The position numbers were made by a program, and so were the translations under genes. Of a DNA stretch of 64,000 nt, positions 1,815 through 53,737 are shown piece by piece. Position 1 is the first letter of the stretch. Each line of letters begins with the position of its first letter. Under the pieces are notes generated by a model, which was not told the DNA's origin, made no database searches, and saw only the letters and a program-made list of their open reading frames with translations. Source of the DNA: Aurantibacter crassamenti (lineage in GTDB: Bacteria; Bacteroidota; Bacteroidia; Flavobacteriales; Flavobacteriaceae). The stretch lies in assembly GCF_016811105.1 (NCBI RefSeq), contig NZ_JAFBGM010000001.1, positions 1,259,126-1,323,125 of the forward strand, in the 5' to 3' direction.

Positions 1815-3533
1815 CTATGCTACCATTACAGACTTGCTCATCTTATGATTTTGTACTTGAATTCTATAAATGTATTTGCCTGTAGCTAATTGTTGTGCCA
1901 TATTCTCTCTAATGTTTATTTCTCTAGAACCTTCAAACATCATTTCATTCATTACTGTACCCATATTTTGACCTAAAATATTGTACAATTGAATATCTAC
2001 GTGAGCGCTGAATGGCATTTCTAGATAAATATGTGGTGCACTATCCGTTGGATAAAAAGGTTTATGAACGATAGTTTCTAATAGGCTTGGGTCGTACGGT
2101 GTTGGATTTGCCGGCTCACCATTTTCTCCAGATTCTGCAGTTGGTATGGTGGGTTCACCATCACTGTATGCGATTTCAGGAAAATCAACACCACTACAAT
2201 TGAAACCTAGATTGACAGGTGCGTAGGTATGCCCTAAAATGTGTTGTTCAACTAATGGTACCGGAATACAGAGCCATTCAGCCATTACTGTGGCATAGAG
2301 GTCTCTAAAATCCATTGTATATTCTAAATTACCTCGGCCATCAGGATTGTCTAAAGTTGGGTGTTCACCCACAAAAGCACTACCGTTTAGTCCAGAGCCA
2401 AAAAATAACGTTGGTGCAGCCTTACCGTGATCAGTTCCGTTAGACCCGTTTTCAAAAATTCGTCTTCCGAATTCTGAAAAAGTCATACTAAGTACTTTAT
2501 CATCTTGCTGCGTGAAAGCTAAATCGTCATAAAAATTATCAATTGCAATAGATAGATATGACATCAATCTTTCATGTGCTAATGGTTGATTACCGTGAGT
2601 ATCAAATCCTCCCAAAGTAATCATATAAACTTTTGTTCCAAGATTACCTTTTATCAATCTCGCTAATAACGCCAATTGACGCGCGAAATAATTATCTTGA
2701 TATTCTACTTCATTTTGACCTCTTTCGTATGCCTCATGAATTTTACCAGAATACTCATAAGTAACGTTCGCAACTCCTCTTAAGAATTCGAGTTGATCAC
2801 CATACATACAATCGTCAAAAAGAGCTGGATCAAGATTGTATTGTAAGCCAGTTTCTGCAATTTCTTCTAATTGGTCAATATTTGATGCTACAAAAGCATA
2901 ATTTGTTTCTTCTCCTTGAAATACCAAACTACCGAAGTTGCCAATCTGAACTGCTGCTGGAGCAACAGGTGGATTCATTAAGTAATCAGGATATATGTTT
3001 TCAAAGTGCCTTCCCATCCAACCTGTATTTAGGCTAGAGAATCCGGTTGATGTAATATCGGTATTCGCAAAAATGTCAGAACCTGTAAAATGTGAGAGGC
3101 TTTGACTTGCATAACCAACACCATGAACAGCTTTAAACTGACCTTCACCCCACATAGGCTCTAACGATTTCATATAAGTGGGTACCCCAAATTCATCTGT
3201 CAGTTTTAAGATTTTACTTTCTGGAATATAAATATTAGGCCTTGCATTTGCGTAGGCATCATATTGTTCAATAGGAATCACCGTGCTTAAACCATCGTTA
3301 CCACCTGAAAGGCGAATAAGGATTACAATTTTATCGGTTTCAGCTTGTGCAATTGCTTGTGTTAATCCGGAAGGGGCAGCAGCAGTTAAAAAATTACTAC
3401 CTAACATCATAGAACCTGAACCAGCTATGCCTAAGGCTTGTAAAAAAGAACGTCTGCTCCAGTTCTTGTGTTCTTCATCATGACCTTCATGTTGTAGGCC
3501 CTTGAAAGGTGTATTGTCATGGGTATCGCACAT
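1815..3533 (-). CDS. DUF1501 family exported protein with T9SS-type C-terminal domain
   Basis: Function unknown; DUF1501 proteins are related to the alkaline-phosphatase/sulfatase superfamily and are often encoded beside DUF1800. The 572-residue protein begins with a short hydrophilic leader and a twin-arginine-like signal (SRRSFLQALG) followed by a hydrophobic stretch. DUF1501 hallmarks are visible: VILIRLSGGNDGLSTV near residue 70, GGFDTHGNQ in the middle and SEFGRRIFENG followed by TDHG. The last 75 or so residues (LYNILGQNMG ... GKYIYRIQV ... KSVMVA) look like a type A sorting domain for the type IX secretion system. It sits 10 bases downstream of the DUF1800 gene on the same strand, so the two are very likely co-transcribed. 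Tat export followed by T9SS is an inference from the two signals. Confidence 0.88.
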   Translation of the reverse strand: MCDTHDNTPFKGLQHEGHDEEHKNWSRRSFLQALGIAGSGSMMLGSNFLTAAAPSGLTQAIAQAETDKIVILIRLSGGNDGLSTVIPIEQYDAYANARPNIYIPESKILKLTDEFGVPTYMKSLEPMWGEGQFKAVHGVGYASQSLSHFTGSDIFANTDITSTGFSSLNTGWMGRHFENIYPDYLMNPPVAPAAVQIGNFGSLVFQGEETNYAFVASNIDQLEEIAETGLQYNLDPALFDDCMYGDQLEFLRGVANVTYEYSGKIHEAYERGQNEVEYQDNYFARQLALLARLIKGNLGTKVYMITLGGFDTHGNQPLAHERLMSYLSIAIDNFYDDLAFTQQDDKVLSMTFSEFGRRIFENGSNGTDHGKAAPTLFFGSGLNGSAFVGEHPTLDNPDGRGNLEYTMDFRDLYATVMAEWLCIPVPLVEQHILGHTYAPVNLGFNCSGVDFPEIAYSDGEPTIPTAESGENGEPANPTPYDPSLLETIVHKPFYPTDSAPHIYLEMPFSAHVDIQLYNILGQNMGTVMNEMMFEGSREINIRENMAQQLATGKYIYRIQVQNHKMSKSVMVA

Positions 3534-3543
3534 AATTGTAGGT

Positions 3544-5037
3544 TTATTTTAGTTGAAATTCAGGTTGTCTTACTAAGTGTAAAAGCAAAAGATATACTTG
3601 GGAATCTGCGTTTGGTAGCATCATACTCCATGATCCATTTTGGTAAACCATATCACTTTCATAGGGTTCTCTAAACACGTCAAACGCTGCGCTGTAATCT
3701 GGAATCTCAGTAAGTAATCCTTTTGGAGTTATCTTATCAATAATTGCTCTAGCTACTTCGTCAGGATCGTTAGTGGTGGCTCCATTTGGTCCAGTCGCGT
3801 CAATACCAAAAGTTCTAAACTGTTCTTTGTTGCTTTCCCAGAAATTTTGAACGAACATTTCAGATGTTAACCAGCGACCTATCATAAAGTTGGTGTTAAT
3901 CCAAGATCGATTACGCTGCCATCCAGCAACGTCAAAGGGGTCAAATAGTTCTTGACTTAATAAAGTACATGCGCTAATAGTGCTGTTTAAAACGGTATTA
4001 TCATACGAGAAGTTTGTTTCCTTGATAAGGTTGAAGTACATATCATACGGACTTTTAATAATAACACCTATGGCGTCATCATCAAAAAAGTGTTCGCTTT
4101 TAAAAAGTTCAGACAGTACAGGGGCTATTTCAAATTGACTGGCAATAAATGTATCGGCCATGCCTTGAATAATAGTTTCAGCATTTCCCGCTTCATCTTG
4201 CGAATCAGGGTGTACAAAAAATTCATATAATTTTTTGCAGATGAATCCCGCTATTTCATTGGGCCGTTGCTCAAATAGAATGTCAATTACATCATCATAA
4301 CCCCAATTACCAGTTTGACCTAGAATTGTTTTTGAACCAGCATCGTGTTTTTCTGGGTCAAAAGTTACAGTTTCGCAACCTAGTTCACCTCGTTCAACAT
4401 AACCAGATAATGCTCTCGCGGTTTCTATAATATCTTGTTCCGTGTAATTGTTTCCTTCTCCAAGTGTGAAAAGTTCATAAAGTTCTCTTCCGTAATTTTC
4501 ATTTGGGTTGTTACCGTTATTGTATACACCATCTAAGTAATATAGCATGGCGCTTGTAAGGCCAATTTCACTAACAAAAGTTTTGAAGTTACCTAAAGCA
4601 TTTCGCTGTAGACAATTAACATAATGATATAAAAATCCATTACAATTATATACATCTAGTTCTGTTACAAAATGATTGCTCCAGAAAAAACTCATTCTAT
4701 CTGCTAAATTATTATCTAATAAAGCGTTTGTGTAGGCTAGGCTAAATTCTTCTCGTTGTGAGTTTACAAGGTTATTTCTAGCTTCATCATTATCTGGGTA
4801 ATTACTATTATTCCAATTTGCCCAAGTAGGCATTGGTATTGGTGCAGAATTAGCAGCTTCATTCATTAAAGTATTAACAACATCAGTCGCAGATTGATTA
4901 ATTGCTGCATTAATGGTTTGTACTGAAGCGCTAAAACCAAGTCTTCTATAGAGGTGTTCAGCTTTATTTTTGTCTAATGGGGTAGTGTACGGCGTTAAGC
5001 CAGAAGTATTACAATTAATGAAATATTCCATAATCAA
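3544..5037 (-). CDS. DUF1800 family protein
   Basis: Function unknown. The 497-residue protein carries the DUF1800 pattern: HLYRRLGFSAS near the start, a central DRMSFFWSNHFVTE, the hallmark NYGRELYELFTLGEG near residue 180, and GWQRNRSWIN near residue 370. No signal peptide is visible at the N-terminus (MIMEYFINCN), unlike its partner encoded 10 bases downstream. An alternative start two codons in (MEYF) cannot be excluded. Neighbouring DUF1800 and DUF1501 genes are found in many bacteria, which suggests they work together, perhaps on an extracellular substrate; what they do is not known to me. It is the first gene of the pair, but I see no convincing promoter in the 190 bases upstream. Confidence 0.85.
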   Translation of the reverse strand: MIMEYFINCNTSGLTPYTTPLDKNKAEHLYRRLGFSASVQTINAAINQSATDVVNTLMNEAANSAPIPMPTWANWNNSNYPDNDEARNNLVNSQREEFSLAYTNALLDNNLADRMSFFWSNHFVTELDVYNCNGFLYHYVNCLQRNALGNFKTFVSEIGLTSAMLYYLDGVYNNGNNPNENYGRELYELFTLGEGNNYTEQDIIETARALSGYVERGELGCETVTFDPEKHDAGSKTILGQTGNWGYDDVIDILFEQRPNEIAGFICKKLYEFFVHPDSQDEAGNAETIIQGMADTFIASQFEIAPVLSELFKSEHFFDDDAIGVIIKSPYDMYFNLIKETNFSYDNTVLNSTISACTLLSQELFDPFDVAGWQRNRSWINTNFMIGRWLTSEMFVQNFWESNKEQFRTFGIDATGPNGATTNDPDEVARAIIDKITPKGLLTEIPDYSAAFDVFREPYESDMVYQNGSWSMMLPNADSQVYLLLLHLVRQPEFQLK

Positions 5038-21473: not shown

Positions 21474-21502
21474 AAAAAAGGAGGCAATTGCCTCCTTTTT
21501 TT
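21474..21502. terminator. Bidirectional terminator between terB and fbp
   Basis: A perfect inverted repeat, AAAAAAGGAGGCA / TGCCTCCTTTTTT, runs uninterrupted through the centre and is followed by a seven-T tract. It lies between two convergent stops (21455 and 21521) and has A- and T-tracts on both sides, so it should stop transcription in both directions. Confidence 0.9.
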
Positions 21503-24485: not shown

Positions 24486-26300
24486 ATGGGTTTAGTGACC
24501 GCAAAAGAGGTGGCCAAGGCTATTAATCTCAACAGATATGGGTTCTTCGGAACCTTTATGAGTTGGTTACTAATGAAAGTCACAAGAATTTCTAGTATTA
24601 ATAAGTACTATGATACTATAAAACATCTTGAGGCACCCGAATATTCAGATGCTATTCTTAAACATTTCGAAATCGACTTTGAGATTCCTGAAGAAGATTT
24701 TAGACGTTTACCAAAAAAAGGCCCTTTTATAACCATTTCAAACCATCCGTTAGGTGCTATTGATGGTATTCTCCTTTTTAAGTTGTTAAATGCGCAGCGT
24801 TCTGATTATAAAATTATGGCAAATTTTTTGCTGCAACGAATGGTTCCTATCGAGCCTTATATAATTCCGGTAAATCCATTTGAAGATAGAAAAGATGTTA
24901 AAAGTAGCCTTGCCGGATTTAAAATGGCCTTACAGCATTTAAAAGATGGTCATCCTTTAGGAATTTTTCCTGCAGGAGAAGTTTCTACTAAAAAAGAGGG
25001 TAAGCTGATTGTAGATAAAGCCTGGGAAGATGCTGCAATGAAATTGATTCGAAAGGCAGAGGTGCCCGTGGTTCCAATATATTTTCATGCCAAGAATAGC
25101 AAGCTTTTTTATCGGATGGCTAAATGGAATGATATTTTTAGAACAGCGAAAATTCCATCAGAAGTATATTCGCAACGAAATAGGCCAATAAAAGTTCGAA
25201 TTGGGCAGCCTATTTCAGTAGATAGTCAACGTGAGCAAGAAACATTAGAAGACTTTACTGAATTACTGCGTAGAAAAACATACATCCTTTCAAATGCATA
25301 TGAAAAAGAGCGATTGATAGATCAACTTCCTTCGTCTTTAAAACTTCCTAAGTTACCTCGTAAAATAGCAACAGCTGTTCCAATAGAGGTTATTGAAGGG
25401 GAAATTGAAAAGCTACGTGATAAAGATAGACGTCTATTGCAAAGCAAGAATTATGAGGTTTTCTTAGCGCCAGCAAATGAGATGCCATTTACGCTTAAAG
25501 AAATTGGTCGTCAACGTGAAGTTACTTTTAGAGCGATAGGTGAGGGTACTAATAATTCAATTGATTTAGACAAGTTTGATGCGTATTACCATCATCTTTT
25601 TCTATGGGATGGAAATAATAAGGCGCTGGTAGGTGCCTATCGTATGGGATTGGGCTCTGAAATATTCAAAAAATACGGTATTGATGGTTTTTATCTTCAA
25701 GACCTCTTTCGTTTTGAGCCTGAGTTGTTCGGAATGATGTCGCAATCTATTGAAATGGGTAGGGCTTACATTGTAAAGGAATATCAACAAAAGCCAATGC
25801 CATTGTTTTTGTTGTGGAAAGGAATTGTGCACACCACTTTAAGACATCCGGAGCATAAATACTTAATTGGGGGTGTGAGTATTAGCAATCAGTTTTCAAA
25901 TTTTTCGAAGTCCTTGATGATTGAGTTTATGAAGTCTAACTATTGGGATCCTTATGTAGCGCAATACATTCGTCCTAAAAAAGAATTCAAGGTTAAGTTG
26001 AATGATGCAGATAAAGACTTTGTTTTTGATGAAACTGCAGCTGATTTAAACAAGTTTGATAGATTAATTGATGAAGTTGAGCCCGGTAATTTAAGACTGC
26101 CAGTATTGATAAAAAAATACATTAAACAAAATGCAAAAGTAATTGCGTTTAATGTGGATCCATTGTTCAATAATGCCGTAGACGGATTAATGTATATCAA
26201 AATAGCTGATTTACCAGAAAGCACTGTAAAGCCTGTTATGGAAGAATTTCAAGCAGAATTAGAGCGCAAATTCGCTGAATCGAATCAGAACGAAGGCTAA
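24486..26300 (+). CDS. Bifunctional aminolipid synthase, OlsF/GlsF-like
   Basis: Two fused acyltransferases in 604 residues. The N-terminal half is a PlsC/LPLAT-type O-acyltransferase with SNHPLGAIDG near residue 86 (the H-x5-D variant of this subfamily) and LGIFPAGEVS. The C-terminal half is an OlsB/GNAT-type N-acyltransferase (TFRAIGEGTNN, DKFDAYYHHLFLWD, GAYRMGLG, MGRAYI). Fused proteins of this kind are known as OlsF (ornithine lipids) and GlsF (glycine lipids) in flavobacteria and some proteobacteria; which amino acid is used here cannot be told. The N-acyltransferase domain would make the monoacyl amino acid and the LPLAT domain would add the second chain. The stop overlaps the convergent arsC reading frame by four bases. 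Confidence 0.82.
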   Translation: MGLVTAKEVAKAINLNRYGFFGTFMSWLLMKVTRISSINKYYDTIKHLEAPEYSDAILKHFEIDFEIPEEDFRRLPKKGPFITISNHPLGAIDGILLFKLLNAQRSDYKIMANFLLQRMVPIEPYIIPVNPFEDRKDVKSSLAGFKMALQHLKDGHPLGIFPAGEVSTKKEGKLIVDKAWEDAAMKLIRKAEVPVVPIYFHAKNSKLFYRMAKWNDIFRTAKIPSEVYSQRNRPIKVRIGQPISVDSQREQETLEDFTELLRRKTYILSNAYEKERLIDQLPSSLKLPKLPRKIATAVPIEVIEGEIEKLRDKDRRLLQSKNYEVFLAPANEMPFTLKEIGRQREVTFRAIGEGTNNSIDLDKFDAYYHHLFLWDGNNKALVGAYRMGLGSEIFKKYGIDGFYLQDLFRFEPELFGMMSQSIEMGRAYIVKEYQQKPMPLFLLWKGIVHTTLRHPEHKYLIGGVSISNQFSNFSKSLMIEFMKSNYWDPYVAQYIRPKKEFKVKLNDADKDFVFDETAADLNKFDRLIDEVEPGNLRLPVLIKKYIKQNAKVIAFNVDPLFNNAVDGLMYIKIADLPESTVKPVMEEFQAELERKFAESNQNEG

Positions 26301-26716
26301 GACAATTCGTTGCTTACAAAAGTGCTGCAAAATTCTTTAATCTCATTTCTAGCCTTTTCAAATGCTGCATGTTTTTCAATTTCTGAGCCAACAACTTTTG
26401 AGGGGTCGAAGAAATTATGATGAATAGGCTTCGCATTTTTAGATGGAATAAACGGACAATTTTCTTTGGCATGATCACAAACGGTAATGATAAAGTCCCA
26501 TTCAATTCCTGAATATTACCCAACATTATTTGATGTATGTTGGGTAATATCAATGTCATCTTCATTCATAATAGAAACCGCGCCAGGGTTTAAGCCGTGT
26601 GTTTCAATACCTGCGCTATAAATTTTTGCCTTGTCAGTTTGTAGTGTTTCAAGATAACCGTGTGCCATCTGACTTCTACAAGAATTTCCGGTGCATGGTA
26701 CTAATATTTTTTTCAT
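26297..26716 (-). pseudogene. arsC: Arsenate reductase ArsC (thioredoxin type) interrupted by an in-frame stop
   Basis: The full frame would encode 139 residues of the low-molecular-weight-phosphatase type arsenate reductase, the usual length. The first 66 codons hold the catalytic loop CTGNSCR (Cys8 to Arg14) and conserved DDIDITQHTSNNV. Codon 67 is TAA (26518-26516). Without any frame change the next codons continue as YSGIEWDFIITVCDHAKENC, carrying the two later redox cysteines, and reach TAG at 26297. Only the stop is abnormal. It lies in the distal arm of a perfect 14-bp inverted repeat (26513-26550). A 66-residue fragment would lack the resolving cysteines and be inactive. Sequencing or assembly error at the hairpin is the main alternative to a true pseudogene. 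Confidence 0.88.
26513..26550. repeat. Perfect 14-bp inverted repeat inside arsC
   Basis: ATATTACCCAACAT (26513-26526), a 10-base spacer, then ATGTTGGGTAATAT (26537-26550). On the coding strand the first arm codes for the conserved DITQH segment; the second arm contains the premature TAA. There is no T-tract after it, so it is not a terminator. Confidence 0.95.
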
Positions 26717-26766: not shown

Positions 26767-27276
26767 TTAATCAATTCCAATAATTTTACTTCTTCGTTCA
26801 TACAGAAGATTGTCTTTCCAAACCCCATCTAACTTACCAATATGTTCACGCTTGCCAATATATCTAAACCCTGAATTTTCATGAAGCTTAATACTGCTTG
26901 TGTTTTCCGGAAAAATGCCAGATTGTAGCGTCCATAATGCTTCTTTTTCGCTAGCGTTGATTAATGCGTGCATCAATAATTTTCCGATACCCATACCTCT
27001 AAAATTGGCATCAATATAAATGCTGACTTCAGCAACACCACCATAAACGCATCTACTAGATACAGGTGAAAGAGCTGCCCATCCTAAGATAGCATTGTCT
27101 TGTTCTGCTATTAAACGACAGGTATTTAAGTGTGCAGCATTCCAAGATTCGTATGATGGTGTAGTTTTTTCGAAAGTAGCATACCCAGTAGCTATACCTT
27201 TGGTGTAAATGTCAGCTACAGCTTTCCAGTCGGAAGTTTCCATTGGTCTAATAGAAATATTTGATTTAGCTGACAT
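26767..27276 (-). CDS. ArsN1-like GNAT N-acetyltransferase
   Basis: A 169-residue acetyltransferase of the phosphinothricin/arsinothricin N-acetyltransferase type. Family features are IRPMETSDWKAVADIYTKGI at the start, GYATFEKTTPSYESW, AEVSIYIDANFRGMGIGKLL with the acetyl-CoA loop R-G-M-G-I-G, and a terminal VWKDNLLYERRS. Position inside an ars operon between arsC and the DUF6428 gene matches the arsN1 genes known to detoxify the organoarsenical antibiotic arsinothricin by N-acetylation. Substrate is inferred from context; phosphinothricin or methionine sulfone are alternatives. It is 31 bases after the DUF6428 gene and 50 bases before arsC on the same strand. Confidence 0.75.
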   Translation of the reverse strand: MSAKSNISIRPMETSDWKAVADIYTKGIATGYATFEKTTPSYESWNAAHLNTCRLIAEQDNAILGWAALSPVSSRCVYGGVAEVSIYIDANFRGMGIGKLLMHALINASEKEALWTLQSGIFPENTSSIKLHENSGFRYIGKREHIGKLDGVWKDNLLYERRSKIIGID

Positions 27277-27307: not shown

Positions 27308-27802
27308 TTAGCAACAACCACTTGCAGGTGAGCAACTAGCAGCTTCATTTTTGCTACCGATAATCTCTAATGGTACCCCACAGGTTTCTTTAGCCTTGCA
27401 ATCGGTTTTCTCAACACCTAGTTTGAAAAATAGTTTCTCTGAATCAATTTCAAAGTCGTTTACGAAAAGTTGGGCGGTATGAAAGTTAGCATTGCTGTAT
27501 TCAAATTTAACTTCAACATTTCTCTGCATTGGCTTTAGTTTGTCAACCTTATTCAGAATTGAAAGCGCTTTAGAGGTTGAGATATAATCTCTTTTACCTA
27601 TTTCACTCGGACTTTCCCATAGTTGAATGATAGTTTCTTGCCAAGAATCGGTGCCAGCGCCACAATCAACTGAATCTATGGTGATATTTTTAACTTCTGT
27701 AATATGATAATTGGGCTGAACCGTTTTACCCTTTTCATATTCAAAAACTAAATCTTTATTTGGGTGTTCGTTTAATAACGATAAGAATTCTTGTGTTTTC
27801 AT
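27308..27802 (-). CDS. DUF6428 family protein with Cys-rich tail
   Basis: A 164-residue protein of unknown function commonly encoded in Bacteroidota arsenic operons. The N-terminal part (FLSLLNEHPNKDLVFEYEKG ... VKNITIDSVDCGAGTDSWQE) is the DUF6428 core. The C-terminal 40 residues are rich in cysteine (KTDCKAKETCGVP, then CSPASGCC at the end), suggesting binding of a thiophilic metalloid such as arsenite; that is inference. The gene lies 12 bases after arsR and 31 bases before the ArsN1-like gene, so it belongs to the same operon. Confidence 0.75.
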   Translation of the reverse strand: MKTQEFLSLLNEHPNKDLVFEYEKGKTVQPNYHITEVKNITIDSVDCGAGTDSWQETIIQLWESPSEIGKRDYISTSKALSILNKVDKLKPMQRNVEVKFEYSNANFHTAQLFVNDFEIDSEKLFFKLGVEKTDCKAKETCGVPLEIIGSKNEAASCSPASGCC

Positions 27803-27814
27803 ATTATTTTGTTT

Positions 27815-28138
27815 TTAACAGCAATTAAATTTAGTAGTGTTAAAGAAAGAGTTCATGAGTTCTTGAACTTCTTTCCAAGTTGCGAGATTAATACAGTAAC
27901 AAACTTTTTTTCCTTCTATTTCTCCATGAATTAAACCAATGTTTTTTAATTCTTTAAGATGTTGTGAAATAGTGGGTTGTGCTAAGCCAATTTCTTCTAC
28001 AATATCATTGCAGATACAAGCTTCTTGTCTGCTGATGTACTGCAAAATTGCAATACGGCCTGGGTGGGCTAGTACCTTAAATATAGAAGCCAGTTGATTT
28101 TGCTTGCTAGAAAATATCTGTGATTTGGTAATTCCCAT
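27815..28138 (-). CDS. arsR: ArsR family transcriptional repressor
   Basis: A 107-residue winged-helix repressor of the ArsR/SmtB family, released from DNA by arsenite or antimonite. The recognition helix region LAQPTISQHLKELKNIGLI is typical. Likely metalloid ligands are the pair Cys41/Cys43 in EACICND at the start of the DNA-binding helices, with additional pairs Cys80/Cys82 and Cys106/Cys107. It is the first gene of the arsR-DUF6428-arsN1-arsC operon. An 18-bp near-palindrome lies 12 bases upstream and overlaps a -7-like box, which fits autorepression. Confidence 0.9.
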   Translation of the reverse strand: MGITKSQIFSSKQNQLASIFKVLAHPGRIAILQYISRQEACICNDIVEEIGLAQPTISQHLKELKNIGLIHGEIEGKKVCYCINLATWKEVQELMNSFFNTTKFNCC

Positions 28139-45626: not shown

Positions 45627-45765
45627 AACTAAATTCTATTGCTCCAATGGGTTAAACAAATGACTCGGAAGTCCCTGTTTTCTAAGGAAGTGCAAATTTA
45701 GACAATTATTTGTGTTGCTAAAGGATATTTGTTGCTAATTTTAAAGGCTAAACGAAAATATTTTA

Positions 45766-45870: not shown

Positions 45871-45880
45871 CAGAAGGTTA

Positions 45881-45908
45881 AAGCCGAGATTTATATCTCG
45901 GCTTTTTT
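45881..45908 (+). terminator. Terminator after tRNA-Leu
   Basis: A perfect 10-bp stem AAGCCGAGAT / ATCTCGGCTT with a four-base loop and a run of six T, starting 10 bases after the tRNA. It is a strong intrinsic terminator. Confidence 0.92.
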
Positions 45909-53706: not shown

Positions 53707-53737
53707 AAAACCCTTCTTTTTTAAGAAGGGTTTTTTT
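53707..53737 (+). terminator. Terminator after the PAS kinase gene
   Basis: An AAAACCCTTCTT / AAGAAGGGTTTT stem with a four-T loop, followed by further T residues, about 90 bases after the kinase stop. It has the form of a strong intrinsic terminator. Confidence 0.88.

Follow-up and report, generated by a model that had tools for sequence, protein, structure and literature searches.

The arsC gene of Aurantibacter crassamenti is interrupted at codon 67 by a TAA triplet situated in an arm of a perfect inverted repeat of 14 bp. As judged from comparison with related genes, the stop codon and the perfection of the repeat are best explained together, and quite probably so, by a template switch at a quasipalindrome, in the course of which one arm of an imperfect repeat would have been rewritten after the other. 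This class of mutations is already well known; a by-product of the analysis, namely the near mutual exclusion of two ArsC types in sampled genomes of the family Flavobacteriaceae, is more interesting than the mutation class itself. Throughout the text, the window is the whole stretch of 64,000 nucleotides that was analysed.

The arsC gene and its stop codon

The interrupted gene and its stop codon are located as follows:

26297..26716, minus strand: arsC pseudogene, as it appears, of a thioredoxin-type arsenate reductase with the LMW phosphatase fold; 139 codons with one in-frame stop
26516..26518, minus strand: in-frame TAA, arsC codon 67 (from the reading frame and codon comparison)

The first-pass annotation described arsC as continuous in one frame save for the single TAA at 26518-26516, and reading of the frame bore this out: the 139 codons extend from 26716 to 26300 and are followed by the terminal TAG at 26299-26297 on the minus strand. 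According to a DNA search, the gene is present in a single copy in the A. crassamenti genome. Its product belongs to the Pfam family PF01451, the best NCBIfam model is TIGR02691, with a score below the cut-off, and 1jl3 and 1ljl are its best PDB matches and nearest solved structures. The P-loop CX5R, the later Cys pair and the Asp, for all of which we assume catalytic roles, are present in the arsC frame and align with these structures; the late Cys pair and the Asp are encoded downstream of the TAA and are, accordingly, removed by the stop. With the ArsC of the pI258 / B. subtilis type, the A. crassamenti gene shares the best PDB and NCBIfam matches, the P-loop and the Cys pair, but, unlike that type, it is stopped at codon 67, scores below the cut-off, and carries prolines at codons 7 and 97. 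Since the frame, which is uninterrupted in a thioredoxin-type ArsC, is broken by TAA at codon 67, arsC is most simply viewed as a pseudogene.

The inverted repeat

The elements of the repeat are, in order of coordinates:

26513..26526, minus strand: arm of the perfect repeat (14 bp) that contains the TAA and is presumed to be the recipient (from the repeat search and the comparison with relatives)
26518..26520, minus strand: three adjacent bases that are the reverse complement of the other arm and all differ in 98 of 101 relatives
26527..26536, minus strand: 10-nt loop between the arms
26537..26550, minus strand: presumed donor arm, within D-I-T-Q-H, with residues typical of the family except for Gln59

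The stop had been placed inside one arm of a perfect 14-bp palindrome with a 10-nt spacer, and the facing arm had been said to encode DITQH. Both statements proved correct: the arms are 100% complementary, and the segment 26537-26550 takes in the last two bases of the Asp codon and all of the Ile, Thr, Gln and His codons. Gln59, encoded by the donor arm, occupies a variable position and is found in 5 of the 101 relatives.

When perfect repeats with arms of at least 11 bp and loops of 3-20 nt were sought, the repeat in arsC turned out to be the longest of the four in the window; simulation of 12 order-2 Markov sequences of 64 kb gave nine repeats with arms of 11-12 bp and none with longer ones. 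The longest perfect repeat within the arsC of each of the 101 distinct relatives measures 5-10 bp. Folded as single-stranded DNA, the arsC hairpin has an energy of -12.1 kcal/mol (z -4.70), as compared to -0.3 to -5.4 for the five relatives that were folded. The other three perfect repeats of the window (21474-21501, 45880-45905 and 53707-53734) have arms of 11-12 bp and 4-nt loops and are, perhaps, transcription terminators.

So strong a hairpin could be taken for a functional element, either one selected as a terminator or attenuator, or one in which the TAA is read through, with arsC still working. We regard this reading as hardly credible: a T-run is lacking after the stem on the arsC strand, there is no ATG, GTG or TTG in the arsC frame between the stop and codon 138, prolines stand at codons 7 and 97, and none of the 101 relatives has the perfect hairpin. 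Both the terminator and a restart of translation downstream of the stop were considered specifically and rejected, the former for want of the T-run and the latter for want of an in-frame start codon before codon 138.

Comparison of the arms with relatives

Altogether, 111 loci were matched; upon merging of identical codon rows, 102 distinct rows remained, namely A. crassamenti and 101 relatives. The first-pass annotation gave V-[DE]-E-Y as the sequence of the relatives at the site of the stop, which is nearly right: codons 66-67 read Asp-Glu in 86 of the 101 relatives, and the second of these codons is Glu in 96 of them and Asp in 5. Codon 67 begins with G in all 101. It had also been proposed that two or three clustered substitutions copied from the other arm would suffice to produce the stop; the comparison points to three, at adjacent bases, and at each of them the reverse complement of the facing arm supplies precisely the base observed. 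In six of the 101 relatives, the recipient arm differs from that of A. crassamenti at exactly the bases 26520-26518 and nowhere else.

Across the 101 relatives, 3 to 10 of the 14 pairs between the arms are formed, as against 14 of 14 in A. crassamenti. A test of the template switch had been set beforehand, namely a search for relatives in which the full palindrome occurs with no stop; it found none, the full palindrome itself being absent from the relatives (0/101). All of the outer five pairs are present in 18 of the 101 relatives, all of the inner three in 43, and both sets in 8; therefore, a partial stem is common at this site of arsC. The donor arm of A. crassamenti differs from that of the relatives at 1-7 of its 14 bases.

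The closest arsC proteins are about 80-82% identical to that of A. crassamenti. The ortholog from a genome of the same genus (G002), which occupies the same genomic place, is 70% identical, has Asp-Glu, and lacks the full repeat. In a protein tree built on all columns, including the stop (as X) and codon 66, the A. crassamenti arsC groups with three loci (L033, L037 and L089; support 95/81), all of which have Asp-Glu at codons 66-67; many forks of this tree are unresolved, and the A. crassamenti tip branch is long (0.38).

Decay of the gene

Apart from the stop codon, unusual residues are found at three conserved positions of arsC:

26708..26710, minus strand: codon 3, Lys; Asn in 99% of the 101 relatives (codon comparison)
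26696..26698, minus strand: codon 7, Pro, adjoining Cys8 of the P-loop; Leu in 98% of the 101 relatives (loop aligned with solved ArsC)
26426..26428, minus strand: codon 97, Pro; Arg in 101 of 101 relatives (codon comparison)

In total, the A. crassamenti arsC has five outlier residues at sites conserved to at least 85%, a tally that is not unique to it: of the 102 rows, its own included, 13 have at least four such outliers and 10 have at least five. Because Pro7 and Pro97 occur at near-invariant sites, arsC appears to be a pseudogene in the process of decay. This bears on the claim that a single template-switch event killed arsC, of which only a part can be retained: the template switch is supported, whereas the sole responsibility of this event for the death of the gene is not, as the enzyme could have lost its activity through Pro7 or Pro97, whether before the switch or after it.

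Origin of the triple change

Under the proposed mechanism, replication would have paused at a pre-existing imperfect inverted repeat in arsC; the nascent strand would have briefly copied the other arm, either by folding back on itself or from the sister strand, and then returned to its template. In this way, at least three adjacent bases would have been replaced by the reverse complement of the facing arm, perfecting the repeat and creating the TAA at the same time. Such behavior of quasipalindromes has been described in E. coli and yeast, where, according to the parts of the reports consulted here, mutations perfect the repeat as one arm templates the other upon misalignment of the nascent strand (PMC7202029, PMC6357072, PMC8604942).

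The template switch put forward in the first-pass annotation is well supported by the comparison. In particular, the repeat is more perfect than in any of the relatives; the changes are clustered, the adjacent triple setting A. crassamenti apart from 98 of the 101 relatives being the complement of the other arm; the full palindrome occurs in A. crassamenti and in none of these relatives; and, among 1,119,798 adjacent triple replacements in the arsC of the 101 relatives, just 2 yield a perfect repeat of at least 14 bp. Applied to the A. crassamenti arsC itself, the same null gives 36 of 11,286 triples reaching at least 14 bp, a figure confounded by the existing repeat; the 20 examples listed from this own-gene null all adjoin the arms of that repeat. 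If exactly these three bases changed randomly, the chance of their matching the other arm would be 1 in 27, which is not negligible. Copying in the opposite direction was considered and rejected, the stop-bearing arm being the one that departs from the conserved codons of the family.

We infer that the triple change was made by one event, and the ancestral state of the arms is likewise presumed. If only three bases changed, the ancestor would have had 11 of the 14 pairs, which is above the maximum of 10 seen in the 101 relatives. Hence, there are three options, namely an ancestor that was unusually well paired, a copied tract of greater length, or a donor arm that changed as well; the last option is suggested by the differences of 1-7 bases between the donor arm and those of the relatives and by the uncommon Gln59.

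Several independent substitutions in a decaying gene are also possible: arsC could have died otherwise, e.g. by way of Pro7 or Pro97, after which three unlinked neutral changes perfected the repeat. This course of events would fit the other signs of decay, namely the unusual residues 3, 7 and 97 and the five outliers at sites conserved to at least 85%, as well as the fact that parts of the stem are already paired in many relatives. Yet it would require that three adjacent changes all match the facing arm, as so few of the random triples do, in a gene with just three other outliers at conserved sites, so that we deem independent substitutions unlikely and favor the template switch.

In the laboratory systems of quasipalindrome template switching, such as the thyA hotspot and the lacZ QP reporters of E. 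coli, rIIB of phage T4 and CYC1 of yeast, an imperfect repeat is, by the accounts drawn upon here, likewise perfected through templating by one arm (PMC7202029, PMC6357072); unlike those cases, the arsC event was not caught in the act but is deduced from a between-species comparison in a wild genome. With the homogenization of inverted-repeat arms in yeast, a source of multinucleotide mutations, arsC shares a cluster of substitutions in coding sequence that matches the facing arm and is unlike the relatives; the yeast cases, as far as the portion of the report used here goes, concern amino-acid replacements between strains and were established with trees and ancestral reconstruction, whereas arsC presents a bacterial stop codon and between-species tallies (PMC8604942). 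A natural bacterial nonsense mutation with the probable template still visible 10 bases off would be a helpful example of template switching in a non-laboratory setting.

Neighborhood of arsC and the sister genome

The genes around arsC in the window are:

24486..26300, plus strand: convergent gene of 604 aa, a conserved neighbor that overlaps the end of arsC by 4 bp
26767..27276, minus strand: open gene of a GNAT acetyltransferase; among NCBIfam models, ArsN1 family A fits best, with a score below the cut-off
27308..27802, minus strand: open DUF6428 gene (Pfam)
27815..28138, minus strand: open gene of an ArsR-type regulator

The order ArsR, DUF6428, GNAT, arsC, convergent 604-aa gene is kept in 54 of the 67 full-length loci among the 80 named ones, and the operon is, therefore, an old one. 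In the 80 named loci, the sequence flanking arsC, up to 4 kb, contained no ACR3 match. The DUF6428 protein has a Cys-rich tail, and a relative of it is encoded near arsC in 70 of the 80 named loci; it may be related to arsenic, and the open-licence PMC literature yielded no paper naming DUF6428.

In a sister genome (G001), the neighbor protein is 92% identical to that of A. crassamenti. At the syntenic site (C3 near 356400, L122), the ArsR and GNAT genes are open, and arsC and the DUF6428 gene are absent: between the aligned blocks, 478 bp of the window correspond to 41 bp of G001, and 608 bp, of which 78 are the unaligned start of the GNAT gene, to 71 bp. A search for the short ArsC elsewhere in G001 gave no match at E 1e-15. 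The syntenic stretch of G001 yields 28 mechanically derived ORFs with a length of 120 aa or more; 27 of these were found in the window, all of them open (26 passed the openness test, and in the one that was flagged, inspection placed the stop ahead of the real start). A second apparent stop, near 45638, proved to be no lesion, since the open 313-aa gene concerned starts downstream of it.

Hairpins are known to cause trouble in sequencing and assembly, and the first-pass annotation had allowed that the read or assembly process made the stop; a fold-back read or a polishing error could have overwritten one arm with the other. An artefact of this kind now seems very improbable: unusual residues are scattered through the gene, the neighboring genes are open, as noted above for the syntenic ORFs, and the short arsC is absent at this site in G001 and broken in another genome of the family, G158. 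The quality of the A. crassamenti assembly (4.52 Mb in 2 contigs, 99.69% complete) also speaks against an artefact.

A second ars operon

The A. crassamenti genome has a second ars operon, in which open genes for ArsR, a 210-aa ArsC-like protein and ACR3 stand side by side. The same three genes are present in G001, with two further ORFs in between, so that the 210-aa protein is common to both genomes; in G002 (84% complete, 7% contaminated), neither the 210-aa protein nor ACR3 was seen. The 210-aa protein has no Pfam match at 0.001; it shows weak matches to ArsC models and structures, its late Cys pair is aligned, and, in A. crassamenti, the ACR3 gene is adjacent. Judging by these resemblances, we infer that it has arsenate reductase activity. 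Two PF03960 matches in the A. crassamenti genome leave room for a further reductase.

The loss of arsC would then have been tolerated because the genome has the second operon, with its ArsR, the 210-residue ArsC-like protein and the ACR3 pump: this second reductase probably makes arsC dispensable, and the redundancy would have preceded the decay of arsC.

Distribution of the two ArsC types in the family

The surveys for the short ArsC, the 210-aa protein and ACR3 cover what we take to be the same 199 sampled genomes of the family. In the stretch compared, some of these genomes agree in every codon with named Flavobacteriaceae loci, for example L011 and L057 (Croceitalea). The short ArsC was found in 80 of them (E up to 1e-15) and the 210-aa protein in 112 (E up to 1e-30). 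Both types occur together in only 6 of the 199, as compared to 45 expected, and neither in 13 (Fisher p 2.5e-33, from a test that ignores shared ancestry). When six genomes with weak or partial short-ArsC matches (G042, G058, G133, G145, G163 and G202) were subtracted, and the partial matches of G105 and G158 kept, both types were still found in 6 of 199 (Fisher p 2.7e-28); the matches in G058 and G105 are truncated where the contigs end. ACR3 (E up to 1e-30) is present in 90 of the 112 genomes with the 210-aa protein versus 13 of the 74 with the short ArsC only.

Two of the six double holders have a broken short arsC, namely A. crassamenti, with its stop, and G158, in which the gene (L128, about 3342-3741) is disrupted by a break of the frame and by a nonsense codon within the P-loop. 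The internal stop of A. crassamenti is the only one among the short-ArsC matches of the survey; the damage in G158 was missed there because only part of its arsC matched. In a third double holder, G117 (L129, 1935-2348), Ser replaces the second Cys of the late pair, and in the remaining three (G160, G196 and G214), the short arsC looks intact.

These observations can be accommodated by a scenario in which gain of the operon of ArsR, the 210-aa protein and ACR3 makes the older ArsC disfavored, so that it is repeatedly lost in Flavobacteriaceae, while its conserved codons encode a near-palindrome prone to a self-templated stop. This scenario is offered as a conjecture, and a doubtful one as a whole; if true, A. 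crassamenti would be a lineage caught in the swap of one ArsC for the other. Two reductase types that seldom coexist, with the older one broken in two of six double holders, provide a picture, open to testing, of how one gene displaces another in arsenic detoxification. Among the titles and abstract beginnings of the open-licence PMC literature, no paper on exclusion or swapping of ArsC types in Flavobacteriaceae, or on this arsC, was evident. As for the 210-aa protein, the matches in three genomes (G102, G180 and G188) contain one stop each, which may reflect either end effects or decay.
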